DNA of 64,000 bases from Echinarachnius parma. Its lineage: Eukaryota; Echinodermata; Echinoidea; Clypeasteroida; Echinarachniidae. The stretch's first letter is position 1; each line of letters opens with the position of its first letter. The DNA lies in assembly GCA_037951105.1 (NCBI GenBank), contig JBAMJV010008414.1, forward strand, positions 62,001-126,000. The letters run 5' to 3'. Shown in pieces: positions 12,217 to 55,879 of the stretch. A program made the position numbers and the translations under genes. Under the pieces are notes generated by a model, which worked only from the letters and a program-made list of their open reading frames with translations, was not told where the DNA came from and searched no databases.

Positions 12217-15200
12217 GTACCTTTGGCTTTGCATTTTGTTGACCTTTTAACATTTACAGTTTAACCTGTTTTCAAATGTTTTGGGTCAATATTATTATTA
12301 ATCTGAAATATATATTAAAAAGAAAAGTTACAAAAATTATCTGTCTGTTTTATAAGTTTTAGATTTCTATGTTTGATGATACATTGAGCTGCGGCAGTAC
12401 TGTCAGGAGAGGGCTGGAGTTTGTCTACCGTAGCTACACCAGTAACGGATCACTTTTTGGTGGATACAATTTCTTGCTAAGACAAAATATTTTTTATGGA
12501 CTATCATACATCGTTGGAAAGCTAAAATGGTGCAGATTACGAATATTGTCAATTCAAACTCATTCCGTCACTAATAAGCAAATCACTGCGCGTTTTACGA
12601 ACCCCTAACGCTGCACCAGTAACGGATCACCACTACACCACATCTACAATGTATTGTAACGAAAATCGAAATTCATTATTTGTGCCGTTTTGCTAACATG
12701 AAAATGTACATATGGGACTGGTGAAATACTTAGTCACCGTCAATGTCCCGTTATATTTTTGACGTTAATATCACTTTAAAAATTGCTTTAATAGCGAGTG
12801 ATACTCACAATTGGGTGAATTTAAATGTTCTTTACGGTAAAAGCAGTGTAGATTCAGAAATATCCTTTGTAAGAAGGAATCATACTTGTTTTTCCGGCAT
12901 AACGTCACCCATTCTCGCACACTTGATAGGTTTTTAAATAGATAATACATGTCATGAATATTCATATTGGCGTTTGCATATGCGCACTTTCGACCAATCA
13001 GTTACTTTGTTTTGGGCGTGGAAGTGTTAGTGCGCATGTGCGGTAGTATAAATAGAGGCCTAAACGGGTTTCCCATTTTAACTCGTTCGATTTCTTGAGG
13101 AGAGGAAACATACGCTATACCTGTATACTGAAGCATTCGCCGTATTCATTTTGAACACTTTTTGGATTCCTACATTGTGAAACCAGGTAAACACAATATT
13201 TTTAGCCTTCATTTTTAGAATCGATTACGGATTTATTTCTATTATTTTAGGAAATTGAATGTTATATTTTTGGTCTAAAAGTCACATTAATCAATTTATT
13301 ATGTCTTTTATCTTTTATTATAAAGAGATTACACTATAACTTTTCGATTGAAATTATGCTTAATTTTGGAAATGTTCAATTGTGGCTACGCATCGAGACT
13401 ATCCCGGAAATGGGAAGGCCCGATTGTTTTATGAATGGATGCGTAAAATCAGCTGTTACTATAAATTTATGATCGATTATCATTTGCATTACTTGTATGT
13501 TTTTATTTTTGTTTGCCCTGACATTGAAGGTGAATTGTTATAAAATCTGCAACAAATATTTTTATTATTGTGAATGAATTGATGAAGTCTACTCTTGTTC
13601 AATTATCGACATACACCTTTTTGTGTGTTCATATTTGACATGCATGTTGAAAGTGGAAAATACTTATAAGATACATATGTCCAAATTGAATTTGAAATAG
13701 TATGAATTTATGAGCTCTTTTCATAACTCTTATTTTTATTAGTGAATTGCTTCAATTGCATAATTCGAATTGTTCATTTTTGAGCGGTCCAAATATGAAC
13801 CGTCCATTTCTGAACGTCCAGATCTGAACCGTCCAATTCTGAGCGGTCTAAATATTAACTGTTCATGATTGAATTTATTGGACTTTGCTTATATAATGTC
13901 AGTGGGCATTATAAATATATGCTCCAATTAAAATAACCAAATTAATTAGCTCTTTCCTCAATTCTTATTTTTTATTATTGAATTGCTTCCATTGTATATT
14001 TTGGAACGTCCATTTCTGAACGTCCAGATCTGAACCGTCCAATTCTGAGCGGTCCAGATCTGAACCGTCCATTTCTGAACGTCCAGATCTGAACCGTCCA
14101 ATTCTGAGCGGTCCAGATCTGAACCGTCCAAATATCAACTGTCCATATTTAAATTTATTGGATTTGCTTATTTTATATAAGTGGACATTATAAATACATG
14201 TTCCAATTAAAATAACTAAATTAATTAGCTCTTTTCCCAATTCTTATTTTTATTATTGAATTGTATATTGTGTGAACATGAATTTTTGATGTGTTTGCTG
14301 ACTTTGATCCGAAGTATGAATTATTCATTATTCTTTTGGAATTTGTCTATTCTCGTTTTCAGAAACATGAATGTTTGGAAAGAGAGGCTGCGAGCCTCAG
14401 TTACTTAATTTAAATGTCACCATAACCTAAGAATTAAATAATTGATTATCATCAATTATTATTGTGTGAATATTGTGTAAATACCTGCAATCTGTTAAAT
14501 AATTGATTTATTAATTGATTATGATAAATTATTATTGTATAAATATGAGGATGTAATTAGTTAAATAATTGATACCATTTGAACGAAATAATTGATTTCT
14601 CAATTATTTCAATCAATTCTTCTTGTAAATTATTATATAAATATTAGTGGTCATTAATTAATTTATTGTCTATTGTATAGTAGACATTGTATTTTTACTA
14701 AGACCTTTTTGTCTAATGACTCTTGGTTGCATGTAATTCTAGACTCTTGGAACTAGTTTGCAACTATAAGTGTCGGGACAATAGGCCTACTTCGAATTTC
14801 ACAGCTTTAAACTGCTCTTATATACATTTAAGCAAACATAAATAACTGTAACTAAGAGACATGAAATATTAGGTAGTAAGCTGTATTTTATTAATAAATA
14901 ACTTTAAACTTTAACATTCATGTACTTGTAGATTAAAATAGCCAGAGGATAGAGAATTTACAACGCTTATTGCTCGAAATCTATACAGTCAGTAAGGGAC
15001 GAGACTAAGGTTTACCTTAGATCTTAGATTGTGACATTAACTAATCTTGAACCGTGGTTGTTAGGAGTTCATAGAAACTTGATGCTTTCAATCCACATAG
15101 AATGTTGGTATTAGTGTTCAGGCATACACTAAAAGAATACTTGTGTATGACCTTAAAAGAGCTAGGGGTGGCTAGGCCAGATGGGAAAATCCCGGTGAGA

Positions 15201-18200
15201 GGTATGATACCAATGGATAAGGTATGGGAATGACTGCTGGACAGTCAAGAATAGGATAGTTATTGTTCGTTGGCAAGAAAAGGTGCCATCCATGTTGGTC
15301 TGATTTACGTATAAAGCATCAACCGGTGAGCAGATTTCAATTAGGAGCATGTCGCCTTAGTGCTGATATTCAGTGCTTTATTTATTACTTATATTAAGTA
15401 CACAAGCGTGTGAGCGAGTAACTCTCTATCTCTCAAATAAAATAAGTTATAGAATAATTTATAAATGTAGAACATAAACATAAACTCGTAACTTGTAAGA
15501 TATTTCAAGCGTATAAGAGCATCCAGATCTTAATAATTTCTTACGTTCAGGATTGAACAGTTTTATACGTCCGAAAACGGACGGTCTTATTGGTAAGAAT
15601 TGGAGCTCAGAACTTTGAGGTTTTCTATATATTCAAAGTCGTAGCGTAATATTACATTTATCTTATCTTATGAATACCTGTATACTCATGTGGCACTATT
15701 CATACAAATTATAAACAAATTTGTTCCTTTCTTTTGACTCAAATTGGAGTACTGTAAATAAATTAATTTGTTATTCATTGTTACATTTAACAATTCTGAC
15801 TCGGTATCGATTTATTCAACTAGTCTGGTGACACACACATTAGTTAGTTGTAATTATATAATTGATGTATGTTGTTTGCATTTGGTTTGTTGAGTGGAAC
15901 ACTTGAATGACTTGTTGAGATGCGGTCATTAACGATGTATGGATGATGCTGAAGAATGTAGGAATATTAGTAGTAGATTTAGTAAGTTAAGGTTTGCCAC
16001 GTTCATTGTTTGTGAACATCCACTCCATTGAAATTGACGCTCGTTATAGATAACCACGCTACGATTGGGGAACCATAATGGAAATGATAGGAAGATAGAG
16101 GTGAATTCTTATGCATTGTTGATGTCTGATTCTGAGCTTGTATAGAGTGTGTGACATAATGCGTGTGGCCAGATGCAACGTGTACGGAATGCATGCTATG
16201 CAAGTGCCTGTATTACATGTATGTATGCCGTGTGATTACGATTGGATAGCGAAACCTAGAGTTAGTGTCCCTTATTGCGCTTATATTGATAGTTATGTGG
16301 AAGGATAATTAGGATAAAGTCACTCACCCATATTCCCGAAGTAGTTGAATCTACCTGGTGTAGTTGACATGTTGATAAACGAGTAGAAGGCTCGTCTTTT
16401 GTAGATGAAATCAGGACACTTCCATTCCGTCGTACAGGTTATTTGCGGCACATTGCAGGTCACGTGTTATTTGTTTATATTTATACGGCCAATAGGAAGT
16501 CGGCTTATATACAGAGTTCGTATAAGGAATCAGAGGCTATTTATAGATCCTTCTTGGATTGTATTCTAAATACTTAGTTGCATTTAGATAGGGTTGGTAA
16601 TCCCCTTAATTTACCTGGTGGCAGCGTTTACTATTGTTGGTTATGATTAAGGTTCCCTCTTCTTTTGTATCTCAAATAAAGCTATGAGAAATATCGATTA
16701 TGACCCGAGCCCCATTCTCGTTACATTGGTGCGCAGCGGTGGGATTGAAGTGGCAAACCTATTTTTGTTATATTTTGATAGATGTGGCAAACTAATTAAT
16801 TGTTGTAACTCTTGTTAATTATTTTTAAAGTCTTCACTGTTGATCAAAATTATTTATCCTAGCAGTGATGAGTAGAGTTGTATGTAGCTAACTGGTTATT
16901 TTACTAAATGCAGTAAATTGGAATACAGAATATTAATTCTGTGATTCCCAAGTGTGTTTCACCAGACAGTGTCGGTTTTATGAACAAAGTGCACATGAGT
17001 TTACATTAGTATGACAATTAGATGTCATACCCGTAATAATAATTAGTAGTGAGCAAAATATTGCTCTACACTTACATTGTAAAGGTTATGGTGACATATA
17101 AACAAAATATATATATATATTAAATAATAATATATAAGTTATATATTATATAAAGGAAAAGAAAAGAATATAGTTCTTAAATGAAACAAACTCCAAATTA
17201 ATACATTTTAGAGAGTTTGTGAGATGGAGAGTGAGAGCCATATTCAGGAGCAGTCTGGGGCTGGAGATCAGCAGGATGCTGATGATGTGCAGAGACGTTG
17301 GGTAATTGACGGGCACGACCCGGAGATAGCCGTACCCATGGCCAGCTTTGGCGATGCAATCCCTCACGAGAGACGGGAAATCTACACTCCACATCAGTTT
17401 CGTGGCAACCCTGCCTACGAAAACAGCAACCGGTCCACAGAGCCAATGAGACGACAGCGCATGGTTCATGGGAAAGATGTTCTACCGGACAAATTTGCCG
17501 GAAAGATTCCGTGGTTGGACTACAAAATGCATTTTGAAGTGTGCATGAGAATTAACAATTGGAGCGACATTGAGGCTGGACAGTTTCTAGCCACACGTCT
17601 ACAAGGACCAGCGATGAAGGTCCTGAACAACATTCCAATTGGTCGCGAGATCACCTACACGGAGCTCATTCATCATCTTGGACGAAGATTTGGCCCCGGA
17701 GAGCAGGCTGAAAATTTCTTATACGAGCTGCGCATGAGACGTCGACAGCAAAGGGAATCCTTACAAGAGCTCGGACAGTCAATCCGCGATTTGACGTGCT
17801 TGGCGTATCCCGAACTTGGTTCGGATGTTCGGGAACGATTGGCACGAGGCCACTTCTCTGATGCAATCGATGATCCGGAAATCAGGGCTGGAATCTTCCG
17901 TGTACAACCATCGACACTTGATGATGCTATTAGGGCTGGACTAATGACAGAATCCTTCATCAAAGCAGAACGGGCTCGGGAACGAATTCGGCCGTCACGT
18001 CAGGTTCGATCCATTGAAGGCAAAGTGGAACCAGTAGCAGTACCTATGGACGAGAAAACAAGAAGAGAAATTGATGAGATTAAGGCTAGTGTCAGTCAGC
18101 TCGTGAACATGATGAAGGACATGAACACTAATGCTTACACTAATGGTAGACAAGGAGTGACGTGCTACAACTGCAAGGAAAGCGGTCACATATCAAGGAA

Positions 18201-21200
18201 CTGCCCAAAACCATCCCAGGGAAACGACCGCAGATCGTTCCAGGGAAACGATCGCAGACCATCCCAATGGATCGAGGGGCGGTCAGGCAAGAGAGGTCCA
18301 CAAGTTTAGATTCGGTATGTACCATCAGGGAGGCTCGAAGGGGAATGTTTGTTACTTCTACGATTGAAGACACCAAAGTCAGAATGCTCATCGATACTGG
18401 GGCAATGATAACTATTTTGTCCACTACCATTTACCAGAACATGAAATCAAGGACTAGAAGTGAACTACGAGAGGCGAATATCCGACTCAGACAAGCTGAC
18501 GGAGCACCAATACAAGTGTTGGGCATAGCTACTCTGAATATGACGATTGGAAGCACAAAACACCCAACCAATTTTATCATCGCTGAAATATTGCAAGATG
18601 GTATTCTTGGAATGGATGTTCTGCTGGATGCTGGAAGTACTATCAATTGCGATAATCTGGAACTAAACTTCAACGGAGAACTCATTCCATGCACAGACTC
18701 TGATGGCAAGGCCTTCAATCCTAGTCAAGCTGACGTCGCAACTCTAGTGGAAGTACCTGAACATTTGAATGACCTACTTCAACGATCGAACTCTGGTATT
18801 GATGACGATGCTCATCTAAAAATTGCAACGCTTCTCTCAAGGTACAGTGATACGTTTTCCAAAGGTGACCATGACATTGGGCGAACAGAAAAAGTAAAAC
18901 ACAGTATTCATACAACCTGTCCAGCTCCTATTCGTCAACACCCAAGACGCCACCCTATCGGCCAAAGAGAAGAAATCGAGACCCAAGTGAAAGATATGCT
19001 CGATCGTGGAATCGTCATTCCATCTACCAGCCCATGGTGTTCACCCGTTGTGCTAGCAAATAAGAAGGACGGCTCAAAACGATTTTGCATAGACTACCGC
19101 GTCCTTAATGGCCACACTGTAAAGGATTCGTTTCCCTTACCCAGAATCGACGAGTCAATCGACGCACTCAGCGGAGCAAAGTATTTCTGCACGTTGGATC
19201 TCGCTGCTGGGTACTGGCAGGTTCCTCTCGATGACGCCAAACTGAAGTCCGCTTTCATAGTCCCTGGAGGTTTGTTTCAGTTCGAAGTAATGCCGTTCGG
19301 GTTGTGCAACGCCCCCTCTACGTTTGAGAGGTTGATGGAGTCAACATTAGCTGGCCTGCAATGGAAAATCCTAGTGATCTACCTAGATGACGTCATCGTC
19401 TATGGTCCAACTGTAGACGAAACACTGGCCAGGCTAGAACTCGTTTTCCAACGTCTACAAGGGGCAAAGCTGAAACTGAAACCCAAGAAGTGCCACCTGT
19501 TTCGGAAAGAGGTTCTCTACCTAGGACATGTCGTCTCTGAACAAGGTGTGCACACTGACCCAGCGAAAATTGAAACAGTGAAAACGTGGCCTACCCCAAA
19601 GTCACAGACGGAAGTAAGGAGTTTTCTCGGACTTGCTTCGTACTACCGCAGGTACATTAAGAAATTTTCCGATGTTGCAAAACCCCTCACCGCTCTAACA
19701 GAGAAAGATCGCCCATTCGAATGGACGCCAGCATGTGAACAAGCATTCCAACTACTCAAAGACAAATTGATGACGGCGCCGATCCTTGCTTATCCTCAAA
19801 TAGGTCAACAATTCATACTCGATACCGATGCTAGCAATTTCGGTATCGGAGCTGTGCTATCCCAGGAACAAGAAGGCAACGAACGAGTGATTGCATATGC
19901 CAGCCGCACTCTGAGCAAGCCTGAGCAGAATTACTGCGTCACCAGACGGGAGCTGCTTGCTATCGTGCAATTCCTGAAACACTTCCGCCATTACTTGTAT
20001 GGTCAAGATGTACTAGTGAGGACTGACCATGGAGCCTTGAGGTGGCTCATGAACTTCAAAGACCCAGAGGGGCAATTGGCAAGGTGGTTAGAAGTTGTTA
20101 GCCAATATCGACTTACCTTACAACACCGTGCCGGCAGAATCCACATGAATGCTGATGGTCTGTCTCGACGTCCCTGCACACAATGTGGTCGCGCCGATGA
20201 CATCTGCAAAGGAAAGCAGTAAAAGACAAGAAAAATGAAATTAGACATTTGAATTCAGAGATATTTTTGTTCTTATTGATCTTTGTTTATTTTTGTACAG
20301 ACTCTTGTAATGAAGTAACTATGGCAGAAATTCAACAGTCCTATAATGAGACTGAACTGGAAGCCCGAATCGCGGCAATGAGTCTGTCAACTAATCATAC
20401 TTGTGCTGAAATACGTAGAGCACAACTATTGGATAATGATGTCAAGCCTATTCTGCAATGGAAGGAAAATTCTGGAAGGAAGCCGGACTGGAAAGACATA
20501 TCGATGTATTCATCAGCTACTAAAACGTACTGGGTAAATTGGAATCTTCTGGAAATTAAAGACGGTGTACTCATGAGAAGATGGGAATCGAATGACGGAA
20601 GAGAATCAACCTGGAAAATAGTCCTACCCAAGCTATTGCGGTCTGATGTGCTAACGGAATTACATGACTCAAAGGTATCGAGTCATCTCGGAGTAAACAA
20701 AATGCTGAATAAGGTGCAACAGCGATACTACTGGGTTGGGCTAGCAGCTGATGTTCGTTCTTGGGTTAGAAAATGCACCGTCTGCCAGCAAGCAAAGAAC
20801 CCACCTAAGAAATCCAGAGCACCCCTTCAACGTTACAGAGTTGGAGCTCCACTAGAGAGAGTGGCAATGGATATTATGGGACCACTACCTGTCACTGATA
20901 GAGGGAACCGCTACATATTGGTGGTCGGCGACTACTTCACTAAGTGGGTGGAATCTTATGCTATCCCAGACCAGGAGGCTGAGACTGTAGCTAGAGTTTT
21001 TGTGGAGGAATTTATCTCCAGATATGGCATACCAAGCGAAGTCCACAGCGACCAAGGTCGGAACTTCGAATCCAATCTGATGGCAGAGATTTGCAGACTC
21101 CTAGGAATAAAGAAGACTCGAACGTGTCCTCTACATCCACAGAGTGATGGCTACATAGAAAGATTTAATCGTACCTTAATTGGTATGATGAAAACACTTC

Positions 21201-24200
21201 TCGATCCATCACGCAACCAGAAGGACTGGGATGAACAGATACCCTATGCCATGCTTGCATACAGATCCTCGGTTCAAGAATCAAGTGGAGAATCACCCGC
21301 CATGATGATGCTTGGTCGCGAACTCAAACTTCCAGTAGACGCTCTTGTAGAAACTCCAGAACCTGGGGAGGAAGAAATTGAAAACAAAGATTATGCGGAG
21401 GAACTGCGTGAGCGACTTAACAAGGCATACGATCGTGCAAGGAACAAAATGAAACTATCCTGTGATCATCAGGCCAAGATGTATGACAGAAATACATTGC
21501 TCACTGCTCATGAAATTGGCGACTGGGTGTGGTTGTATGTAACAGAGAGGAAACGTGGTGTCTGCCCTAAACTGGTTATGAAGTGGACTGGCCCCTATTT
21601 GGTGACTACTAAGTTGTCTGATGTGGTATACCGCATTCAGAGAAGTGAGAGGGTCAAACCAAAGGTGGTACACATAGATAGGCTGAAGAAATACAATGGT
21701 CCGGAACTAGAATCATGGCTAAGACGTACCGTCCCCCGACGTAATAGATCTGTGCCCAACAGATATCGAGACTAACGCCCAGGCCAATATTTTGTTTTCT
21801 TTTCTCTCCAGAACATGATGTTTCTCTGTGACACATGCCGCGCTGGCTTTACCGCCAGATCAGCGTTGAACCGGCATGTACAGACTGTACATGCCACACC
21901 CCTCACAATGAAGTGTGAACACTGTACTTTTGAACATCGGACCACAACCAGTCTCAAGAGACATTATAGACTCAAACACAAGCTCCCAGCCGAGGATGTA
22001 AAGGCGATCTCGTTTTCCCCAGCATCAGTGGCATACCTGGAATTAGAGAAGGAGGAGCGCGCAGCCGAAATGAAGGAGCCGACCCTAACTGGCGAGGAAC
22101 TTGCCGTAAGAAATAGAGAAGTGGAGAAGGAAGAGCGAAAGAAGGAGAAGACGAAGAAGAAGGCAGAGCGAAAGAAGGAGAAGACGGTGAAGAAGGCGAA
22201 CAAGGAATCAACAACCCAGCTCGATCGACCCCCGATTAAGGTGATTTTCAGTCCATTAAAGGCCTTGGAGGCAGAACTTGCGCTATCAACAGATGAGGAG
22301 GAATTGGATTATCAAGAATCGTTACCAGAAATAGTTCTGGTGAAGGAGGTACCACGCATAAAGCGACCGATCAGGCCGCTGAAGCGAAAATTTGAGGAGG
22401 AAACGAAGAGCGAGATGGAGATCAACATACGCAAGGTCGTCGAGGAGGAAACAAAGAGCGAGATGGAGATCAACACACGCAAGGTCGTCGAGGAGGAAAC
22501 GAATAGCGAGATAGAGATAGACACACGTAAGGTCGTCAAGGAGGAAGACGAGGAGTATGTCACGATTACCCTTCGCCAACCAAAGTTTGGCCGTGTGCGT
22601 CTCCGCACGATTACCGTCATCACGGAACATTTTTTCCATGTACATGGAGTGGAGAAGCGGGCGGGTGTGGAGACGCGCACCGCGTATTTCGAGCAAGACG
22701 AGGCGGGGTCCAGTGAAGAATAAGTGTTAATTTAAAGAATTTTTTTTGTATATACATGGACGATTAATTTTAATTGATGAAGGAAACATATATGGACTTC
22801 CTCAATCAATAACATTTAAATATGAACATTATACCAGTCGATTGAACTTATTTGACTGTATTTGAACATTCGCGTTATTGTAGTTGTGGACTGTATTTAA
22901 AAAAAAAAAAAAAAAAAAACATTAGTCTTGAGATTATTACCTTGACTTGCATAAAACGATCCTCAACAGCATCAGTTCTTGGATGCACAGCAACGACAGG
23001 CGAAGTCTGCATATTCCTTTGGAGAGGAAAAACAGGAAAGATTTATTAACTTCAATCAATAACATTTAGTTATGCTTGAGAAGAAGTTACAAAATACATT
23101 TCAATGCGAGAACTTTATTGCTTACAATGGAGCAGGAGTCAATTGACTGTTTAAGACCATGAACATTTATGTAATGAATTGGTTATTTTCAAATGTTTAT
23201 AAAATGTGAGAAATATTATTCAGCATTGTCCATATGTGATTTTCTGTTATATTGCTATCTTTGCTGGGACAGCAATTTTTTAAAGGAGGGGGCAGTGTAA
23301 CGAAAATCGAAATTCATTATTTGTGCCGTTTTGCTAACATGAAAATGTACATATGGGACTGGTGAAATACTTAGTCACCGTCAATGTCCCGTTATATTTT
23401 TGACGTTAATATCACTTTAAAAATTGCTTTAATAGCGAGTGATACTCACAATTGGGTGAATTTAAATGTTCTTTACGGTAAAAGCAGTGTAGATTCAGAA
23501 ATATCCTTTGTAAGAAGGAATCATACTTGTTTTTCCGGCATAACGTCACCCATTCTCGCACACTTGATAGGTTTTTAAATAGATAATACATGTCATGAAT
23601 ATTCATATTGGCGTTTGCATATGCGCACTTTCGACCAATCAGTTACTTTGTTTTGGGCGTGGAAGTGTTAGTGCGCATGTGCGGTAGTATAAATAGAGGC
23701 CTAAACGGGTTTCCCATTTTAACTCGTTCGATTTCTTGAGGAGAGGAAACATACGCTATACCTGTATACTGAAGCATTCGCCGTATTCATTTTGAACACT
23801 TTTTGGATTCCTACATTGTGAAACCAGGTAAACACAATATTTTTAGCCTTCATTTTTAGAATCGATTACGGATTTATTTCTATTATTTTAGGAAATTGAA
23901 TGTTATATTTTTGGTCTAAAAGTCACATTAATCAATTTATTATGTCTTTTATCTTTTATTATAAAGAGATTACACTATAACTTTTCGATTGAAATTATGC
24001 TTAATTTTGGAAATGTTCAATTGTGGCTACGCATCGAGACTATCCCGGAAATGGGAAGGCCCGATTGTTTTATGAATGGATGCGTAAAATCAGCTGTTAC
24101 TATAAATTTATGATCGATTATCATTTGCATTACTTGTATGTTTTTATTTTTGTTTGCCCTGACATTGAAGGTGAATTGTTATAAAATCTGCAACAAATAT

Positions 24201-27200
24201 TTTTATTATTGTGAATGAATTGATGAAGTCTACTCTTGTTCAATTATCGACATACACCTTTTTGTGTGTTCATATTTGACATGCATGTTGAAAGTGGAAA
24301 ATACTTATAAGATACATATGTCCAAATTGAATTTGAAATAGTATGAATTTATGAGCTCTTTTCATAACTCTTATTTTTATTAGTGAATTGCTTCAATTGC
24401 ATAATTCGAATTGTTCATTTTTGAGCGGTCCAAATATGAACCGTCCATTTCTGAACGTCCAGATCTGAACCGTCCAATTCTGAGCGGTCTAAATATTAAC
24501 TGTTCATGATTGAATTTATTGGACTTTGCTTATATAATGTAAGTGGGCATTATAAATATATGCTCCAATTAAAATAACCAAATTAATTAGCTCTTTCCTC
24601 AATTCTTATTTTTTATTATTGAATTGCTTCCATTGTATATTTTGGAACGTCCATTTCTGAACGTCCAGATCTGAACCGTCCAATTCTGAGCGGTCCAGAT
24701 CTGAACCGTCCATTTCTGAACGTCCAGATCTGAACCGTCCAATTCTGAGCGGTCCAGATCTGAACCGTCCAAATATCAACTGTCCATATTTAAATTTATT
24801 GGATTTGCTTATTTTATATAAGTGGACATTATAAATACATGTTCCAATTAAAATAACTAAATTAATTAGCTCTTTTCCCAATTCTTATTTTTATTATTGA
24901 ATTGTATATTGTGTGAACATGAATTTTTGATGTGTTTGCTGACTTTGATCCGAAGTATGAATTATTCATTATTCTTTTGGAATTTGTCTATTCTCGTTTT
25001 CAGAAACATGAATGTTTGGAAAGAGAGGCTGCGAGCCTCAGTTACTTAATTTAAATGTCACCATAACCTAAGAATTAAATAATTGATTATCATCAATTAT
25101 TATTGTGTGAATATTGTGTAAATACCTGCAATCTGTTAAATAATTGATTTATTAATTGATTATGATAAATTATTATTGTATAAATATGAGGATGTAATTA
25201 GTTAAATAATTGATACCATTTGAACGAAATAATTGATTTCTCAATTATTTCAATCAATTCTTCTTGTAAATTATTATATAAATATTAGTGGTCATTAATT
25301 AATTTATTGTCTATTGTATAGTAGACATTGTATTTTTACTAAGACCTTTTTGTCTAATGACTCTTGGTTGCATGTAATTCTAGACTCTTGGAACTAGTTT
25401 GCAACTATAAGTGTCGGGACAATAGGCCTACTTCGAATTTCACAGCTTTAAACTGCTCTTATATACATTTAAGCAAACATAAATAACTGTAACTAAGAGA
25501 CATGAAATATTAGGTAGTAAGCTGTATTTTATTAATAAATAACTTTAAACTTTAACATTCATGTACTTGTAGATTAAAATAGCCAGAGGATAGAGAATTT
25601 ACAACGCTTATTGCTCGAAATCTATACAGTCAGTAAGGGACGAGACTAAGGTTTACCTTAGATCTTAGATTGTGACATTAACTAATCTTGAACCGTGGTT
25701 GTTAGGAGTTCATAGAAACTTGATGCTTTCAATCCACATAGAATGTTGGTATTAGTGTTCAGGCATACACTAAAAGAATACTTGTGTATGACCTTAAAAG
25801 AGCTAGGGGTGGCTAGGCCAGATGGGAAAATCCCGGTGAGAGGTATGATACCAATGGATAAGGTATGGGAATGACTGCTGGACAGTCAAGAATAGGATAG
25901 TTATTGTTCGTTGGCAAGAAAAGGTGCCATCCATGTTGGTCTGATTTACGTATAAAGCATCAACCGGTGAGCAGATTTCAATTAGGAGCATGTCGCCTTA
26001 GTGCTGATATTCAGTGCTTTATTTATTACTTATATTAAGTACACAAGCGTGTGAGCGAGTAACTCTCTATCTCTCAAATAAAATAAGTTATAGAATAATT
26101 TATAAATGTAGAACATAAACATAAACTCGTAACTTGTAAGATATTTCAAGCGTATAAGAGCATCCAGATCTTAATAATTTCTTACGTTCAGGATTGAACA
26201 GTTTTATACGTCCGAAAACGGACGGTCTTATTGGTAAGAATTGGAGCTCAGAACTTTGAGGTTTTCTATATATTCAAAGTCGTAGCGTAATATTACATTT
26301 ATCTTATCTTATGAATACCTGTATACTCATGTGGCACTATTCATACAAATTATAAACAAATTTGTTCCTTTCTTTTGACTCAAATTGGAGTACTGTAAAT
26401 AAATTAATTTGTTATTCATTGTTACATTTAACAATTCTGACTCGGTATCGATTTATTCAACTAGTCTGGTGACACACACATTAGTTAGTTGTAATTATAT
26501 AATTGATGTATGTTGTTTGCATTTGGTTTGTTGAGTGGAACACTTGAATGACTTGTTGAGATGCGGTCATTAACGATGTATGGATGATGCTGAAGAATGT
26601 AGGAATATTAGTAGTAGATTTAGTAAGTTAAGGTTTGCCACGTTCATTGTTTGTGAACATCCACTCCATTGAAATTGACGCTCGTTATAGATAACCACGC
26701 TACGATTGGGGAACCATAATGGAAATGATAGGAAGATAGAGGTGAATTCTTATGCATTGTTGATGTCTGATTCTGAGCTTGTATAGAGTGTGTGACATAA
26801 TGCGTGTGGCCAGATGCAACGTGTACGGAATGCATGCTATGCAAGTGCCTGTATTACATGTATGTATGCCGTGTGATTACGATTGGATAGCGAAACCTAG
26901 AGTTAGTGTCCCTTATTGCGCTTATATTGATAGTTATGTGGAAGGATAATTAGGATAAAGTCACTCACCCATATTCCCGAAGTAGTTGAATCTACCTGGT
27001 GTAGTTGACATGTTGATAAACGAGTAGAAGGCTCGTCTTTTGTAGATGAAATCAGGACACTTCCATTCCGTCGTACAGGTTATTTGCGGCACATTGCAGG
27101 TCACGTGTTATTTGTTTATATTTATACGGCCAATAGGAAGTCGGCTTATATACAGAGTTCGTATAAGGAATCAGAGGCTATTTATAGATCCTTCTTGGAT

Positions 27201-30200
27201 TGTATTCTAAATACTTAGTTGCATTTAGATAGGGTTGGTAATCCCCTTAATTTACCTGGTGGCAGCGTTTACTATTGTTGGTTATGATTAAGGTTCCCTC
27301 TTCTTTTGTATCTCAAATAAAGCTATGAGAAATATCGATTATGACCCGAGCCCCATTCTCGTTACAGTATTGTAAATGGTCCAATTGGGACCATTTACTG
27401 CTCACAGTGGTAAAAATCTACGGGACACAATTTGAACTACAAACAGAGAGAAAAGAACAGCATATCTAAAGTAAAAAATTGCATACCTAGATTGAAGCTG
27501 ATTTTATGATTTATTGTACAAAATTTCATTTTCAAAATGATAAGTCATACTTACAAAAATCGTCATATAAGTTCCATTTCTTTCTCTTCCTGCTCGATGT
27601 CCCATCGTAAACAAAGAAAGCCCGCCCGCAACATGCGGAGGCCGCTTATTATTGTCCAAAACAAGCCAACTCGCGATCTGCAAGCATGCCCGCCGTATCC
27701 GATTTCGGATACGCCGTATCAGAATTCGGATACGCCGTGTCAGAATTCGGATACGGTAACACGTGTGGTGTGGGAAGCTTGCGGGAAATACATGACAGTC
27801 ATCCAGATAGCAGCAACACTTTCGACCGGGATCACGACTGAGATTTTCTCAGTCTTTTTATTTTCCAAAACTGCAGATTTTCCATTTTTTTCGACATTTG
27901 AAGAATAATTTGGACCATTTTGGTAAGTTCATATAACACTTGTATCATTTTTAGGGCCAGTCATGATTGATTTTGTTGAATTTAAGATAAGAATTTTGTG
28001 TGAAATTTTGACAAACTTTTTTTGTACTGTCCCACATTGTTCCCGTATAGCGCAGCATTACAATGTAGTGTTGTGTGCACTACACCAGTAACGGATCACC
28101 TGGCTTTATTTTAAAAATAATTGACCAATTATCTTAATTTTTTCATCAAAGTGTTAGCAAATTAGCAATTAATATCCAGGAAAAATGTTACTTCTTAAAC
28201 ATGCTTCCTTATTTAGTTATGAGGAGTTGAATTCTGCCACACATGATCCTTATGAAATTTTAGCAAAAATCACACAAAACCCCGATTTTACCAAAATAGC
28301 CATTTCATTTTCGATTTTCAAGTTAGAAATATCACAGATTCTAGTGAAATACATTGTTACAGCAAAACAAAATTAATTCTGATCTTTTGTTTTGTTTTAT
28401 AAGGATTTGAAAATGGGTGATCCGTTACTGGTGTAGATAATTTCTGCTGTAATTATACATTAAAATTTGCCTTTTTTTACTATAAGCCTGCACCCAAACA
28501 CCCGGGAAATGCTGTGGGGTGTATACCAGAACATCTTTCTGTGTTAATAATATATGAATTCTAGATCCGTCGGCATATTTTTGTTTTTGAAACATCTTAT
28601 TTAAAAAAATGAAATTAAAAAAATCCACGTTTTTTTCTTGAAAATCTGAAATCTGTACATTTTGTCACTAGATGACACTATTTTGAAGGCTAATTTCTCA
28701 CTTTTGCGCGATGATCATGGAACTGAGGTTTATCACTTTTAAAAAGGAGATGATAAAGTTGATATTAGATGCACATTCCTCTTCCAGTTATGAAAATTAA
28801 AACAATTAGATAGTCACAAACGTCTTCATGCATCAATTTGGGTAGGTGATCCGTTACTGGTGTAGAAACGGTACTTCCGATTTAAAAAATGATCTCATCT
28901 AAATTCACTCTCCAATTATCTATGATTAGTAATATATATATTTTAAAATTTATATTAACTTGTCAGATATGAAGGAGGAGAGAAACAGGTTGGGATGGTG
29001 TGGCACGATCGGATGGATGCTTGACTTCAAATCTAGAGGTCGTGGGTTCAAATCCGGTTGATGTCTCATCATTGATGTCCTTCAGCAAGACATTTAATCC
29101 GTATTGTTGCTCTCTACCCAGGAGTATAAATGGGTACCTGGTTGGGTGTTAGTTAGCCTGGGCGCTATCATATGGCTGCCATTAGCTAGTATGCTCCCCG
29201 GGGTGTTGAGATGGTGCGCAAGATAATTGTGCGGGTTTGAACTGTACCAGTAATGACCAGGTTAATAATACAGCGCATAAGGATGTGCATTTGCAATGTG
29301 ATCATATTATTGTTATTTAAATTATTATCAGAGAGGTGTTCCCGGAGCTGCATCACTACGCCAGGAGAGAAGTCTGGAGTTTGTCTGTTTCTGATTTTAA
29401 ATAATTGTGTAATCTCTTAGATGTTTTATAATATTTTTATTTTAATATGATACTAACTTGTCAGATATGATGGAAGAGAGGAACAAGTTGATCAGAGAGG
29501 TGTTCCAGGAGCTGCGTCAGTACTGCCAGTTTGTCTGTTTCTGATTATAAATAATTCTTTGTTTAATTTCTATAACTTCTCTTGTTTAATAATATTTTTG
29601 ATCATGCATCTGTTTTAATTTGATATTAACTTGTCAGATTACTCAGATATGAAGGAAGAGAGGAACAAGTTGATTCGGGAGGTGTTCCCGGAGCTGCATC
29701 AGTACTGCCAGGAGAGGGGTCTGGAGTTTGTGCATTTCTGATTATGAATAATTATTTAATCTCTTATTCTCTATGTTTGATAATTTTTTAATTTTAATTT
29801 GATACTAACTTATTAGATATGAAGGAAGAGAGGAACAAGATGATTCGGGAGGTGTTCCCTGAGCTGCGTCAGTACTGCCAGGAGAGGGGTCTGGAGTTTG
29901 TGCATTTCTGATTAGAATAATTGTTTAATCTCTTATTCTCTATGTTTGATAATATTTTTATTTTAATTTGATACTAACTTATCAGATATGAAGGAAGAGA
30001 GGAACAAGTTGATTCGGGAGGTGTTCCCCGAGCTGCGTCAGTACTGCCAGGAGAGGAGTCTTGAGTTTGAGGTGGTGGACATGAGATGGGGGGTCAGGGA
30101 CAGTGCCACCGCTGACCACCTGACCTCTCTCCTGTGCCTCAATGAAATTGACCGATGTAAGCAGATGTCTCAGGGACCTTACTTTGTGGTAACTATGATG

Positions 30201-33200
30201 AAAATTAGGAAAGTGATCCGTTAACTCTCAAACAACTTTTCATAAAACTTGTGATATTTGAGACTACAGTATAATCATATACCAGTATAATTGTAAGATT
30301 CTCATATTTGATGTGTGAAAGTGATAGAAAAAGAAAGCTGTTTATCTATAGTGAAAAAGTGAAAATTTATGTAAGATTTTATCACCTACTCACCGATTGT
30401 TTACGGGGAATATCCAAAGTTGGATACTATGAACTATCAAAGTATCTGAATTTGGATTCTTTTGACTACAATAGAAAGATAGGGACAAAACTGTGTATTA
30501 ATTTTGGCAATTTGAAGAGGTTCATCATATCAACTTCATTGATTTTTGCAAGAGAAGCATACTTAACAGAAGTGGCAGAGCTATCAACTTGATAATGACT
30601 GGGAGATCTACAGGGCTACCATACACTACTGTCCTGATGATGATTATGATGATATGAATCCTTTTACTAAAAGGGAGAAGTTTGTACAATTAATCCAATT
30701 ATCTTTAATATTCAGTGGTTTAGACCTCTTCATGAGTATCTGGTAGGAAGTCATCTAGGTGATGTGCAGTTTTCTTCTTCTGAGATAAACTATTTGATAT
30801 ACACTCGAAGGACACTCTTGCTTTATATTTGTCTTATGAATAGTGTTTCCTTGGCAACAAATATGGCTACCGGCCCCTGAAGGCGAGCATCGACTCTCTC
30901 GTCTTCAAGGAGCTCATCAACGTCGCTTCCAATCATGAAACCATCGATGAAGAGGACGTAGACCTCGTGAAAAGATGGTATGTGGAGGACACTAATTGCG
31001 TACCCCCCGTCTACACCCTTCAGCCCATCACTGTGCATCTTCCTGATTACTACAATGCGATGGATGCGGACAAACAGAGAGCGGCGAGGGAGGAATGGTG
31101 GAGGATGTTTGAGAGGATGAGGAGGGTGTTTGACGAAGCGGCTCGATTGGCTGTAGAGAAGGGCGCCCTCTCAGAAGAACTCATGCACACATTTGTGATG
31201 TCAGGTATGAATAGCTCAAAGGAACATTTGTTTTTTACTGCTTCATTATTAGTATCTAGCCAGAGTTGACACTGTATAGAGGGCGACGAATGGGATAATA
31301 TTCCTGTGGGTGGGGGAGCCTGAGTTGAAAATTGCTTTGAAATCTCAATCAGGACTGGTCCCAAAATACTCTTGCTTGGGTCTATGGAGAATGTGTGAAA
31401 ACCTGTGTATTAAGTTGTATGAATTGTATACATTTTTGCGTGGAGGAACAGCACAGGTAGACGCTGGGTTCATCGTGACTTACCTTTGCTTGGTTTGAAA
31501 AACAAGAACATATATATATTTCTCATCCTTGTTGCTTTTCCTGTATTACAGTGACGGAAGAAGAGCTCAGACACAGTCTGCTTGGAAATGAAAACATTCA
31601 GGACACGTCTCTCTTCTTCCTGCGTGATTTCAAAGAACTCGGTCCTACTCCAGAGGAGGGGAGCTCTATTGCACAGTTTGCTGACGTCAGCCTTAATGAG
31701 TAAGTCAATTTTCCTTGCCATTTTGGTATCCTACTCATTAAGTGGTCACTTTCCCTTTAGTGAAGATTCTGCAATTATTAAAAGCTTATGCCCCATTTTG
31801 ACTCTACAAAGATTAATAATGCAATATGGTTGTCTGTCTGCTCCATTCTCAGTATTGCATCAATACAAGAACCAGTGGCAGATTATCATCAAACTTGGTT
31901 GCTGTATGTGTCTTGAGTGTTTAAAATGAGTTGATTTTGGGGTCATGAGGTCAAAGGTCACAGGTCTCTTTATATGACAGTTCTTTCCTTAACTCTTTTC
32001 TAAACCCATTCCCTTCAAGATTCTGAAATCCCCATAGACCTTCTGCATATCCCACCCGGTTCCTGTACGCAACAAATTAACTGTGTGACAGTTCTGTATT
32101 ATCATTCTTCTATTTCTTTTTGAAATGTTTTCCCCTCCAGTGACAAAGGAACCTGTGAGTTCATGCAGCACCCACAAGCTCTCCTGTCCAAGCTTAAGCT
32201 GGAGTACATCCCAAATCTTGTTCCCCAAGACTCCATCAACCGGTACAGCATTCCCTGGAGGAAAGGGGGGCTTGAACCTACGACCTGCCCAGAGCACGCC
32301 GAGTACCTGAACCACATGTGCTCAGTGTTTGCATCCAGGATCAAGGCTATGATTGATAAGAAGCTGGAAGGTCGGGGGTCAAGGGAGGCTGCTGACCAGG
32401 TCAAGTTGGACCTGTACAAGGAGATCCTTCATCATGCATCATTCTGCAAAACCAAATGCAGGTGTGTGCAGTCAAACCTAATCTAGTGCTAATACCTAAT
32501 ACTAACCCTATTATATAAAGAACCAAATGCAGGTGTGTGCAGTCAAACCTAATCTAGTGCTAATACCTAATACTAACCCTATTATATAAAGACCACCTGT
32601 CTTTAAAGACCACTGTACTTGATTCCTTTGAAAGAAGTGTACATTTAATGAAACCTGTCTAGATAGAGATCACCTGTTTACAAATACCACCTTTTCTCTG
32701 AATTCTGTCTCCCTTTGGTGGTCTTATAGATGAGTTTAACTCTATTTACGCTTTCCTTTATGGAATCCTACTTGACTTTATGATTGAAGTACAATATTTT
32801 GAAAGGGACAAGTTAAAGTTAACTTTATATAGATCTTTTTGATAGATCAGCTACCTTTTAATATTTTTGCTGATTTGTAGCTTTATACTAGCTGTTTTGT
32901 ATTCGTGAAAATAGCTGATTTTATGCTTAAATTGCAGACAAAAGACAACCTGAGAAGTGACTTCTAAACAGTTGTCACAGTGATGATTATGTAGATTAAT
33001 ATTCATTTAGTATCATATATATATTTTTAACTGTATGTTATTTTTAATTTGCAGTGTGTTTCAGGGCAGAGATGAGCTGCTGGCTTCAATCAGGAATTAC
33101 TTGACCTCCAAGCACGGCAAGCCACTAGTCGTTCATGGAGTCTCCGGGTCAGGAAAGACATCAGTCATGGCAATGGTCGCAAGAAATGGTCCCCAGTGGA

Positions 33201-36200
33201 TCGGACAGGGCTGTGTGACGGTCCTGCGATTTCTAGGGACTTCGGCACAGAGTACTTCCATCCATGGCACGCTACAGAGCATGTGTAGACAGGTTAGTTT
33301 AGAATGATAACTTAGCCCGGTTTTTCAAATGATAATCTATTCCCAGTTTTTGGACAAGTTGGTAGTCCTTAAAACCTTGAGCTACTGAACAAAGATTTAT
33401 TGTTGATACATTTCCTATAGTGTTTTCGGTGTCTTGGCCCCAAATTCATTAGAGTATCAAATTGACTTACACGACTATTATTTTCAAAGCTTTTCGCTTC
33501 GTATGTGGAGGATTAAAACAACCCAAAAGCCACCATTCAAAAGATTTTTTTGTAAAGCTGGTCCTTGAATAACTAAAAATATTTGTAGTATCAACTTTAC
33601 AATTGTTATAATTTGTGTATGGTACTATGTTAACTCCTACTAATTCACTGTGACAGATAAGAGTTTCTAATAGATTTCCATAATGTTTGTTTTCAACAGT
33701 TGTGCTTTGCCTATGGAGTAAAGCAGCCCCAAAGTGACCATATAGAGGACTTTTCAGAGCTGGTCCAGGTATTTGGTCGCTTGATTCAAACTCTTCCCAC
33801 AACAGAGAAGCCTCTTCTCCTCCTGTTCGACAGCATCGATCAGCTGAACGCCAACCACAGCGCCCACAAGATGAACTGGCTCCCAAAGACCCTTCCAGAG
33901 AACACCTCTATCATTGTATCCATGCTCCCCAAGCAACACAACTGCCTGGACAACATCAGGCTGACCTTGACTGATCCAAAGTGTTATATCTCCATGGAGA
34001 CGGTGCCCAAGGAGACTGGAATCGCCATTATGGATGGATGGCTTCACAGCAGGAGAAGAACTCTCACCCAAGATCAGAAGGACATCATTGCAGCTGCCTT
34101 CAGCAAGTGTCCCCAACCTCTCTTCCTGAAGCTCCTGTTTGAGGACTTTGTAACATGGCCGTCTTACAAACCAACCGAGGGAATCAAGTTGCCAAATGAC
34201 GTCGTTGAAGCAATCGTCAACCTGTTTCAGGAACTAGAGGACAATCACGGACCAATCCTTGTTGCGCATGCGCTTGGGTATCTCACGGCAGGAAAGAGCG
34301 GTCTTACAGAAGCAGAGATTGAAGATGTCTTGTCGTGTGATGATGAAGTCCTGAATGATGTCTATCAGTATTGGGATCCTCCTGTAGAAGGGATTGTTCG
34401 CATTCCTTCATCGGTCTGGAAACGTCTCAGATACGACATCTCGGAATTCCTATCTCAGCGTCAGTCTGGTGGGAAAACGGTGATAACCTGGTACCATCGG
34501 CAGTTCATTGAAACAGCCAATACTCGCTACCTTGGCATCACAGAGACCAAAGAGATGAGGCATCAGCTGCTTGCTGATATGTTTCTGGGAGAGTACAGTA
34601 ATGGAGCCATCAAGCCCATCCGGCTAGCAAAGCGTAACAAGGACTTTCCAAATGCCAACCGCCATGTTGGCCCACAGCCTGTGATGTTTAGAGGCAATGT
34701 CTTCAACATGAGGAAGTTGCTTGAGCTTCCATATCATCTAATGAGATGCCGGCTGCACAATGGTGTTCCTGAGGGCATGGTCCAGCACATCATGTACAAC
34801 TTTGACTGGATTCTCACCAAGCTGAGGTCCTTCAACTTCCTTGACCTCATCAACGACTTCTCTGCATTCGATGAGGAGAGTGCTCTCTTGATCGACTCTC
34901 TCTACCTCTCTGGAAGCAACTTGAAAGAGGACCCATTTTCTCTGGCTGGGCAGCTGATTGGAAGCATGGCAGATCTTACTGATGGACACCCAAACCTTGC
35001 CAAACTCCTTGAGGGCGCAAGGAAATGGGTCTTTGAAACAAACATGCCACTGATCATTCCTAGAGGTGCATGTTTGATACCACCTGGGGGCCAGTTGAAG
35101 ACCTCACTCTCTGGTCACCCTTCTAAAGTGGAAGCACTCACCCTCAACAGATCTGGAAACATCCTTGTAACAGTGTGCAAGGACACAAGTGGGCAGCCAA
35201 TGGCAAATGTGTGGGAGGAAGCAACAGCGGAGCTTATCCACACCCTTCAGCTCAAAGCAGGTAAAAAGGCTTCTGGGGCATTTTCTGTCGTCGTCAGTCC
35301 TGATGACAAGTATGTCTTCTTTGGCAGTCAGGTCATCGGGATATTTGATCTGATCAGTGGAGAATGCATTGGGAAACTCGAGACTGGTGCCAACCACGCT
35401 CTTACATCCTTCATGTTGAACGATGCTGGGACTGTGGCTGTAGCTGGTGCTGAGAAAGGATCGAATGCTTTTATGTGGGATCTGCAGAACGACAATGCCC
35501 TAACCAAGTTTGAGCATCCAGGAACTGTCTTCTACGCCACCTTTGAAGAAAACACAGAGCTCCTGACTGTGTGCCAAGATGGCTCACTTAGGCGGTGGTC
35601 ACTGAACACCAGGGAATGTCTGCATGCTGTAGAGCTCCACAGGAAAGGCGAGGTTAAAGCAGTTGCGCACGCCAAATCCCTCAAGATGATTATTTCTGGA
35701 GGAAGTGATGGTGTGATCAAACTCACCAACTACCTGGACAACCCGTCTGCACCTGAGAGGTCTCTTGAAGGACACAAGAAGGGAATCCTTTGCCTGCTTG
35801 TTCTTTCGGAAACGCATTTTGCCTCTGCTGCAGGGGACAACATTGTGCGCATCTGGGACATCGGAAAGGGGACAACAGTCATCCATTGCAAAGGTACGTA
35901 GGTGTTCAGTTCAGTTCAGTATTAGTTTATTCATGACATGAAATAAAAGATATATAACAAGAGGAAAAAAGTTTGCTGGGGACTGGGGATCACTTTATAA
36001 TTTAAGCTGTAAGAGTGTATAAAAAGGTGTGTCACTGTGAATATGGTGTTAGATTTGTATTTTGTTGTTTGTTTGAAACTCTAGGACTTTATGAAGGGTC
36101 AAGATTGGTGTCATTGAAATTGCTTAGATTTACTAGGAATTGAAACAAAATTTAAGCAGAATGGATTATGCTCCCTACCTGTTATATTTAATTGGCAGTG

Positions 36201-39200
36201 CAGACTCATCTGCTTTTTTAGAAACTACCACTATGTTAGACTTCACAGGTAACATTGTATGGCTGCGGTATGGTCCTAGCAATAACAATGACATCCCATT
36301 GCTGTGTTGAGATTCATACAAAGATGACTACCTGAAAATTGTGGCACATTTCTTTCAGACAACCAACAGTTGCAAATTTGTACCTTTTGATTGCGATTTA
36401 TTTGGATATGCTCTGCATAACATATGAATTGCTTTATAGTTGTTTACTCTTGTTGATACGGTTCTGTTTCCCTAGGTCATACAGGGTACATAACAAGCCT
36501 CTGGTATGGTCCAGCTGACACAGATGACCCAAGGAGTAAGTCCATCCTCGTATCTGGATCAAAGGATGACCATGTAAAGGTCTGGGATACCAATCCCGAG
36601 GACCCAAACAATCCCCTTATCACCACGCTAGAGGGTCATGCTTCTTGGATCTCAGCAGTCACAGGGTCGCCAGTTAGTCAAACCATCTACTCGGCGTGCA
36701 ACGACAAGAGCGCAAAGGTGTGGGACTACAGGAAAGAGACGGTGGGTTTGCAATGTTTAGCCTCTTTAAATTTTAAGCCTAAATCTTCAATACCACCTTG
36801 GGCTTCTAATAGTAAAGCAATTGTGATTCATTCCATTGTAGTACAAGGATGTCAAAGGGTGGGGGGGGGGGGGGTGGGGGGTAAGTAGGGGGCAACACCT
36901 TGAGGGTGGGGGAGGGGTACAATTAAAACATCATGTTCATTATAACTACAATAATAATTATCAGAATTTTCATCATCTTCATTGTCATTATAAGTCATGA
37001 AGACTATAAGGGGCCATCTACAAAGTATGTACGCACAAGGGGGGGGGGGGGGGGGGGGTTCACGCTGATGCATATATGCTTCATTCAACCAGGTGTATAA
37101 AAAGTGCGTACAGGGGGGGAGGGGGGTCAATTTCGGACAATAAATTACATACTTTGTAGATGGGCCCTAATGCTGCTGCTGCTGATAATGATGACGATGA
37201 CCATTGAAATGAAGACTAATGATGACTAGGATGATGATAAGATGATGACGATGATGATGATGATGATGATGATGTCAATGATAATGAAGATAATTATGAA
37301 TTTCTTCTTATACTACAGGTTATCAAGAGAGAGCGTCATGAGGATCATGCCTTTGCGGTCATCTTCTCTCCTGATAAATCAACGGTCATCACCAGCGGGA
37401 AGGAGGGAACGGTCAAATTCTCCAGATTCAAGGACTGCCAGATCGTGAGGCGGGAAACGGGGTTCACCAACAGTCTGATGGTCAGCCGGGATCAGAGCAA
37501 GCTGATTGGTGCACTGCATGATGAGGGCGTGGTCCGGGTCTGGAGCTTGGACCAATCGGACAACGGCAGCACCTTTGATCTTGAAGGACACGAGAAGGGC
37601 ATGGTGTACATGGCTCTGGGGCATGGTGATGAGGTCGTTGTGGGGTCAAAGGACATGACCCTGACAGTGTGGAATCTGAAGGACAGGTCACAGAGATTGA
37701 CCTTGAATGGTATGGTTGAAATTATATGGTTCTAAAGATGCAATTGATTTTGATAGTAAAATACCTTGTTGTGGGCTTAAAGTTTTACACTAACTTATTT
37801 GCCCCTCTGCAACGTTGTTGATATCTGTAATTTGTTTATGGCGTTGTGCGGTATCAGCGAGAACATGGGCAAAGGAAGGACTGAACCAGACTGAACTTGT
37901 CTTTATTTAATGACCACGCTTTTTCCAAATTGGATTTGAATGAGTTTATAGTTGGGCTATTTACTACATAATCTGGCAGATTGTTCCATTCTGTTACAAT
38001 GCGTTGAGAGTATGCATTCTGTCTCCTTTGAGTTTTCACCCGGTGCTTGGTAACCTTGTACTTGTGACCTCTGGTTCGCTTGTCAAAGAAGGTACTTGGT
38101 TGAACATCATCTAGGCCTTTAACTATCTTGTAAGTTTGGATGAGATCAGATCTGTGTCGACGGTAGGCTAACGTAGGCAACTTAAGCTGTTTGAGTCTCT
38201 CTGAGTAGCTCTTACTCTTCATATCTGAAACTGCCTTTGTTGCCCGCCGCTGGACTTTCTCAAGCTTATCCTGGTCTTTCTTCAGCTGTGGGTGCCACAC
38301 TTGTGAACAGTACTCCAAAGAGGGTCGTACTATAGATTTGTATAGTAGAGTGAAGCTGGAAGAGTCAAGTGAAGAAAAAGTCTGTTTGATGATTCCCATC
38401 TTTCTGTTTGAAGATGCTGCTACTCTATTTGCATGCTGTGAAAAGTTCAGTTCATCATCAAACGTAATTCCCAGATCATTTTCACTGCTTGAGACTTGTA
38501 GGTTTGGGTGGTCTGGAGACAATTTATAGTGAGATCTGGGTTCTTTCTGCCATAGTGCATCACTTTGCATTTGTCTTCGTTGAAGGGGAGTTGCCATAAG
38601 TCTGCCCATTTGGTGATTGTCATTAGATCATCCTGAAGAGCTTCCTGTTCGTGGGGATTGTTGACTACAGAGTATAGCTTTGTGTCATCTACAAACAACT
38701 TCACTATACTCTTTGCTGACTTCAGTACATCTGGCAAGTCGTTGATGAAGATTACAAACAGCTCAGGTCCAAGAACGCTGCCTTGGGGGATGCCACTGCT
38801 CACTCTTGCTTCAGTAGACACTGCACCATTGATAAAAACTTGTTGTCGTCTGTTGCTGAGGAATTACTCAATCCACCTCCAAAAGTTGTCTCTGATGCCA
38901 TATGAGTGTAGCTTAGCTAGTAGTCTTCAGTGTGGAACACTATCGAAGGCTTTTCTGTAGTCCAGGTATATGCAGTCGATAGATTCTCCCTGATCCAAAG
39001 CTTCTGCCCAATCCTCGGTGCCTTCTAATAGTTGAGTTGCACATGACTTCCCTTTTCTGAATCCATGCTGGTGGGAACTGTACAGGTTGTTGAATGTCAT
39101 GTGTTTGTTGATTTCATCTCAAACTATCCGCTCCATGACCTTGCCGATTGCGCTGGTTAAGCTTACTAGTCTGTAATTATTTGGATTGCGTTTGTCCCCT

Positions 39201-55878: not shown

Positions 55879-55879
55879 A

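Follow-up and report, generated by a model that had tools for sequence, protein, structure and literature searches.

Foamy viruses encode, downstream of pol, a small DNA-binding protein (Tas/Bel1) that switches on the virus's own LTR. In plants, VANDAL elements are DNA transposons, a class other than Gypsy. The VANC protein of Arabidopsis VANDAL elements is a TE-encoded, sequence-specific anti-silencing protein, and its targets are often tandem repeats, which differ from one TE to its relatives (PMC5735166). The CERV protein of the element Cer1 of Caenorhabditis is made from a spliced mRNA, is nuclear and fast-evolving, is suspected to form a zinc-binding loop and is described in that report as having no obvious homologues outside nematodes (PMC10309623). 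In rotifers, the report on Vesta, Juno and TelKA describes captured ORF3 genes that encode a GDSL lipase, a DEDDy exonuclease and env (PMC5408684). Extra genes behind pol are already known in LTR elements. In a mollusc survey of 21 Gypsy clades, the words "zinc", "ORF" and "envelope" are absent from the main text (PMC6238403). The initial annotation of the locus analyzed here knew of no described Ty3/Gypsy lineage with a C2H2 zinc-finger gene in the env position, and we likewise found neither such a lineage nor a clade-wide C2H2 gene behind pol in the open literature, a scope outside which lie most subscription papers and Repbase.

The window, that is, the whole 64-kb (64,000-nucleotide) stretch of Echinarachnius parma DNA that was analyzed, contains a complete and very young Ty3/Gypsy insertion with a C2H2 ORF located 39 nt behind integrase. 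The element is composed of the following features (window positions and strand):

12651..12654, no strand: 5' copy of the target-site duplication, GTAT (4-bp duplication)
12655..16725, +: 5' LTR of 4071 bp, TGTAACG...CGTTACA (LTR pair comparison)
13767..14145, +: short TCTGRAC / CGTCC-type units repeated in tandem within the 5' LTR (the 3' LTR has the second copy, 24408-24786)
17224..18309, +: gag, 361 aa, with one CCHC knuckle (ORF and domain match)
18162..20222, +: PR-RT-RNaseH open frame, terminating right behind RNase H (split pol; ORF and domain match)
20276..20300, +: splice-acceptor-like site 5' of integrase (rank 2 among the candidates of the 6.6-kb internal region)
20321..21775, +: integrase with H2C2, rve and p58_C, encoded by its own frame, which is open from 20249 (ORF and domain match)
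21787..21811, +: polypyrimidine tract and AG, 3 nt upstream of the ORF's ATG (top-scoring acceptor-like site of the internal region)
21815..22723, +: C2H2 ORF in the env position, 302 aa (ORF, Pfam, genome copies)
21827..21892, +: finger 1, C-x2-C-x12-H-x4-H, residues 5-26 (Pfam and alignment)
21914..21979, +: finger 2, C-x2-C-x12-H-x4-H, residues 34-55 (Pfam and alignment)
22091..22210, +: predicted charged helical stretch, residues 93-132 (single-sequence structure model)
22394..22537, +: three 16-residue repeats, residues 194-241 (sequence)
22547..22687, +: conserved C-terminal block, about residues 245-291, for which no relatives were seen (alignment, structure-database search)
23282..23295, +: polypurine tract (read from the sequence)
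23296..27366, +: 3' LTR (LTR pair comparison)
27367..27370, no strand: 3' copy of the target-site duplication, GTAT (4-bp duplication)

The two LTRs, of 4,071 bp each, present a single difference (99.975% identity). The element possesses the features of Ty3/Gypsy (Metaviridae): the order PR-RT-RNaseH-IN, a CCHC motif in gag, a p58-type integrase C-terminus (Integrase_p58_C, E 1.7e-14) and LTRs with a short target duplication. Its pol is not one polyprotein, PR-RT-RH and IN being separate frames; a single polyprotein is usual in Ty3/Gypsy but not strictly defining. Because relatives with long fused frames occur in the same genome, we read the split pol as a derived trait. We take the primer-binding sites of the window element (16726-16745) and of the F2-F4 leaders (families defined below) to resemble the complement of the tRNA-Leu 3' end; they carry one extra base, which is different among F1, F2 and F3. 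Elsewhere in the window, pieces of host genes with NACHT-like and WD-repeat-like sequence were recognized by eye on the + strand (30967-45793), as were fragmented LINE-like reverse transcriptase, endonuclease and ORF1-like frames on the - strand (37854-41357). Blocks of tandem repeats are located at 45814-46589, 47130-47549, 49291-49739 and 53942-55879 and include one 970-bp tandem duplication with 99.4% identity.

The initial annotation had described the ORF as an intact frame of 302 codons with two perfect C2H2 fingers, a charged coiled-coil stretch, three internal repeats of about 20 residues and no membrane segment, and nearly all of this description was borne out. The frame starts with ATG, contains no internal stop and encodes both fingers near its N-terminus, and the charged stretch coincides with the one part of the protein (residues 93-132) that a single-sequence fold predicts confidently, as a helix (mean pLDDT of the whole model: 48). 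The repeats are indeed three in number; their units, however, are 16 rather than about 20 residues long (residues 194, 210 and 226). The best 19-residue Kyte-Doolittle mean is 0.94 in F1 and 0.56, 0.31 and 0.78 in F2, F3 and F4, and none of these proteins shows the hydropathy of an errantivirus-type envelope. Six Pfam C2H2 models match the window ORF with scores below their curated cut-offs (E 0.0003-0.03), and zf-C2H2 passed in the ORF of locus C6715 (35.6 bits against a cut-off of 25.2), whereas the C10141, C2237 and C4214 ORFs scored under the curated cut-off. Among solved structures, those nearest to the fingers are the fingers of CTCF (PDB profile matches; whole-chain E 7e-12, best single stretch 3e-6), and clusters of basic residues are present in the protein. 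The profile search of the structure database revealed no relative of its C-terminal part. No match at E <= 0.01 was obtained in a database of 5.8 billion protein sequences with either the ORF alone or a seven-row alignment (A1), a search that requires shared 5-residue words, such that relatives at ~30% identity may stay hidden. No relative was found in viral contigs, and in GTDB genomes integrase had two weaker matches, at 37% and 21% identity, both from bacterial bins.

The ORF is not specific to this locus. Searching the same 1.2-Gb genome with the ORF returned at least 47 matches, including open frames in diverged families; this is a lower bound, as 130 of 1,448 candidates were scored. We defined the families F1 (the window copy and those of contigs C981 and C11614), F2 (261 aa), F3 (253 aa) and F4 (265 aa). 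The C981 copy has an ORF identical in every letter to that of the window and a different 5' flank. Across F1-F4, identity amounts to 67-80% in integrase and 65-78% in PR-RT-RH but to ~25-34% in the ORF, with the exception of the pair F2/F3, which shares 96% in pol and 64% in the ORF. Within the ORF, the fingers and a ~50-residue C-terminal block are conserved and the middle is variable. Both fingers are found in F1, F2, F3, F5, C6715 and C6197; the last His of finger 2 is lost in F4, and C4214 and C92 present one finger.

The initial annotation had also proposed searching related copies for the ORF, with absent or broken frames counting against it. Among the best 88 of 1,854 candidates listed with an integrase query, 18 rows reach at least 66% identity; leaving out two integrase fragments of one rearranged neighbouring copy (C7430), the ORF is open behind 13 of the remaining 16 loci, broken behind two (the first C11614 copy and C7430) and absent behind one rearranged locus (C4344). 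The status of two loci (C11084 and C3068) was judged solely from the table of ORF-query matches. We surveyed 19 more distant loci (<=52% identity) drawn from different groups of the integrase list, reading 1.7-2.0 kb from inside the integrase C-terminus. At 46-52% identity, a C2H2 frame was present behind pol in 9 of the 14 loci examined. C6715, C12336 and C1070 form one family, in which a frame of 332 residues is open in all three copies; C4214 and C1896 form another, with one finger and a frame both open and identical in the two copies. The frame of C92 extends past the stretch read, that of C6197 is broken in its second half, and the other carriers are C10141 and C2237. In the stretch read, no C2H2 frame was seen at C3386, C72, C2861, C4350 and the chimeric C8995, nor at any of the five loci examined with <=42% identity (C1107, C9234, C2452, C8066 and C3956). 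The last of these, C3956, was set aside as a carrier: its C2H2 pattern match is loose and no ORF query matched there. This locus represents a distant Gypsy family in which the integrase C-terminus is immediately followed by a PHD finger (PF00628, E 2e-10). In old F1-like copies (L018-L022 and L028) and at L023 and L024, the ORF is only partly open. Relatives without the frame or with a broken one therefore exist, yet most relatives keep it. The recurrence of diverged but open frames in other families is more than chance, and the C2H2 gene is a property of a Gypsy clade rather than of one element.

We estimated selection from substitution ratios, the other check that had been proposed. Between the F2 and F3 ORFs, pN is 0.22 and pS 0.83 (saturated), for a ratio of 0.27 (bootstrap 0.21-0.35); the ratio is that of this pair, the remaining pairs being synonymously saturated or nearly identical so that no ratio was taken from them (e.g., pS 0.83 and pN 0.44 between C6715 and C92). 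The finger part and the C-terminal part show a pN of ~0.11 in F2/F3, whereas codons 141-190 are nearly neutral (pN 0.56 vs. pS 0.79). Neutral simulation to a pS of 0.69 led to a pN of 0.63 and to at least four stops in each of 40 replicates. These comparisons strongly indicate that the ORF is under purifying selection in the measurable pair and evolves much faster than pol. The nearly neutral middle of the protein and the broken frames of old copies would be expected of a decayed or chance reading frame without function, but with purifying selection in F2/F3 and frames open at most close loci and in most distant carriers, such an explanation appears extremely improbable.

We then considered the origin of the gene. 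In a maximum-likelihood tree of integrase from 19 loci, the ORF is found in 11 of the 13 rows of one clade, whose support (90/92) is lower than the tool's mark for a firm branch. The two rows of this clade without the ORF are C3386 and C2861, and the integrase of C2861 is nearly identical to that of the carrier C92. ORF presence requires three changes on this tree relative to a mean of 6.3 when shuffled, and a value this low was reached in 3 of 500 shuffles. A single gain with two losses is enough to account for the distribution on the integrase tree, which suggests that the C2H2 protein was probably acquired once, in the env position, by a Ty3/Gypsy clade and was mostly kept. Alternatively, C2H2 genes might have been captured repeatedly and independently at this position. 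The distant families differ in finger number and spacing, and a comparison of the F1-F4 profile with C6715/C92 aligned the fingers only. Because C2H2 fingers resemble one another anyway (the family profile also matches CTCF), finger similarity is no proof of common descent for the most distant ORFs. In contrast, the carriers cluster on the integrase tree, finger 1, where present, is of the H-x4-H form at the extreme N-terminus, and the arrangement of a splice acceptor and ATG recurs; we thus regard repeated capture as a serious but rather unlikely scenario. In a PR-RT-RH tree of 49 rows, F1-F4 group with 22 database proteins with 100/100 support. In 20 of these 22 proteins, no more than 25 residues separate the RNase H motif from the C-terminus, and the other two lack the motif and are of similar length; on this basis, the split pol marks the clade of 26 rows. 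Within this clade, F4 is placed apart from F1-F3. Where the 120 listed pol relatives carry an animal name, it is that of Pinctada imbricata or of one of two dart frogs.

Several observations suggest that the element is spliced. When the internal region of F1 was scanned for acceptor-like sites, the first-ranked site was located 3 nt before the ORF and the second, TTTATTTTTGTACAG, before integrase (window stretch 20222-20321). The site before the ORF also ranks first in F2 and fourth in F4, whereas the scan found no good acceptor-like site near the ORF's ATG in F3. Overall, 10 of 11 families have an acceptor-like site 0-25 nt upstream of the ATG. When random 70-nt windows were drawn from the same locus, those scoring equally well or better made up 0.7-8% in F1, F2, F4, F5 and C2237, 13% in C6197 and C10141, and 19-42% in C6715, C4214 and C92. 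Relative to copy L010, two F2 copies (L009 and L011) lack an exact GT-AG intron that extends from AAG/GTAGTG in RNase H to TTCCTTCCAG/AAAC before the ORF. Among the F2 matches of the ORF query, three have the frame length of the spliced form (279) and five have that of the unspliced form (four of 309 and, with shortened repeats, C8569 of 292). In L011, the starts of the LTRs are identical at 408 of 408 bases and the copy has a 4-bp ATAT duplication, which indicates that spliced RNA was apparently reverse transcribed and inserted. L009 and L011 (contigs C713 and C3605) have lost part of RNase H and all of integrase and have kept gag, PR-RT and the C2H2 ORF; they have moved, presumably aided by full copies. 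At C713:510767-519107, two spliced-type copies are spaced by 7,558 bp, which is the LTR-to-LTR distance of L009, and these copies are therefore probably in tandem with a shared LTR. The donor of the L009/L011 intron is absent, by eye, from the corresponding place in F1, and for the normal ORF message the leader offers weak donor candidates only, as scored against a consensus table. Considering the acceptor-like sites of 10 of 11 families and the two insertions without an exact GT-AG intron, splicing of the element is very probable, and the ORF protein is probably translated from spliced RNA.

An element with real introns would need to export its unspliced RNA, and C2H2 fingers are able to bind RNA. 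The ORF protein might therefore act as a CERV- or Rev-like factor that binds the unspliced RNA of the element in the nucleus and gets it exported. CERV, which genomic RNA requires for its nuclear export, differs strongly from one species to another and might contain a finger of the C4 type (PMC10309623). The fingers of the ORF, in contrast, resemble the DNA-binding fingers of CTCF, and CERV, to which the ORF is likened by description, shares gag exons and is presented in that report with no C2H2 finger named (PMC10309623). We consider an RNA-export function improbable on balance.

The comparison of F2 with F3 further suggests that the ORF has been exchanged. Synonymous divergence between the two families is low in gag (dS 0.13, using the F2 copy L009), PR-RT-RH (0.19) and integrase (0.16). 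Compared in 60-nt bins, the two families are 92-98% identical as far as the integrase stop; identity drops to 72% in the bin starting ~5 nt past the stop, ranges from 43 to 78% over most of the ORF and rises to 73-97% from the end of the ORF into the beginning of the LTR; it is ~83% further into the LTR and 93% at the LTR end. This pattern, which could have arisen if reverse transcription switched templates once where pol borders the ORF, strongly indicates one exchange in which the ORF was swapped along with the 3' region and U3 but without integrase. Such linkage favors a regulator over an integration tether, the two roles that the initial annotation had offered for a captured DNA-binding protein. 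A tether would guide the integration complex to particular chromosomal sites, a role played in other elements by chromodomains or LEDGF, and it is true that fingers of the DNA-binding type adjoin integrase and that a different Gypsy family in this genome has a PHD finger behind its integrase. Integrase and the ORF are not strictly co-inherited, however, being 96% and 64% identical between F2 and F3, and the ORF is kept in two spliced copies, and in a third judged by its frame length, without integrase, which weakly argues against this role as well. A tether appears quite unlikely overall. As for capture, we only infer a host origin of the gene.

If the protein is a regulator, the LTRs of its own element might contain its targets. 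Arrays of short motifs are present in the LTRs of F1, F2 and F3, and the motifs of F1 and F2 differ: we counted 13 TCTGRAC sites in the F1 LTR (0.6 in shuffles) and 21 TTTAGAC sites in the F2 LTR (1.1 in shuffles), with motifs that were picked after the arrays had been seen and counts that tandem duplication alone can yield. Neither motif is found in the F4 LTR, which presents a different 32-bp repeat in two of three copies, and the short LTR of C1070 contains no array except a 1.9-copy repeat. The arrays were consequently set aside as general evidence; those of F1-F3 could be candidate targets of the ORF protein and constitute a lead. The finger positions that usually contact bases carry residues that differ between families (by eye), suggesting that each family's protein would read its own target.

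Taken together, the CTCF-like fingers, basic clusters and rapid evolution of the protein, along with splicing and the link to U3, suggest a regulator that acts in the nucleus. We lean towards the view that the ORF is an accessory C2H2 gene of a Gypsy clade whose product is a nuclear nucleic-acid-binding regulator, most likely acting on its own LTR. The protein would be translated from a spliced subgenomic mRNA and enter the nucleus by means of its basic clusters; its fingers would bind nucleic acid, its helical or C-terminal parts might allow oligomerisation, and it would most likely bind its own LTR and thereby activate or de-silence the element. A more specific version of this model is doubtful: in an ancient animal Gypsy clade, the element's own C2H2 regulator may recognise motif arrays in its own U3, co-diversify with them and pass between lineages as a gene-plus-U3 cassette by template switching, making it a counterpart, in animal LTR elements, of plant VANC. 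If the protein does read its own LTR, zinc-finger protein and target would constitute a natural pair that rewires rapidly and would serve as a test case for the self-regulation of animal retrotransposons without an envelope. With its split pol, acceptor-like sites and spliced copies, the clade also constitutes a model for splicing-dependent Gypsy expression, and its young intact copies make the question directly addressable in RNA data of the host.

The foamy virus protein Tas/Bel1 is likened to the ORF by description only and is not a C2H2 protein. The tandem targets of VANC would find a putative parallel in the arrays of the F1-F3 LTRs; F4 lacks the motifs and C1070 an array, and target binding is putative here. 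CERV and the ORF are both fast-evolving, and the spliced mRNA of CERV may be paralleled, at the genomic level, by acceptor-like sites and intron-less copies; the finger named for CERV, in a protein likened to the ORF by description, is of the C4 type (PMC10309623). The rotifer elements share with this clade an extra gene at the ORF3 position and modular exchange, with reported expression from spliced messages; their proteins are different, and the word "zinc" is absent from the main text of that study (PMC5408684). Finally, chromoviruses are likewise a Gypsy lineage that stands out by having gained a domain (PMC12440569); their chromodomain is fused to the C-terminus of pol, whereas the C2H2 protein described here is encoded by a separate gene.
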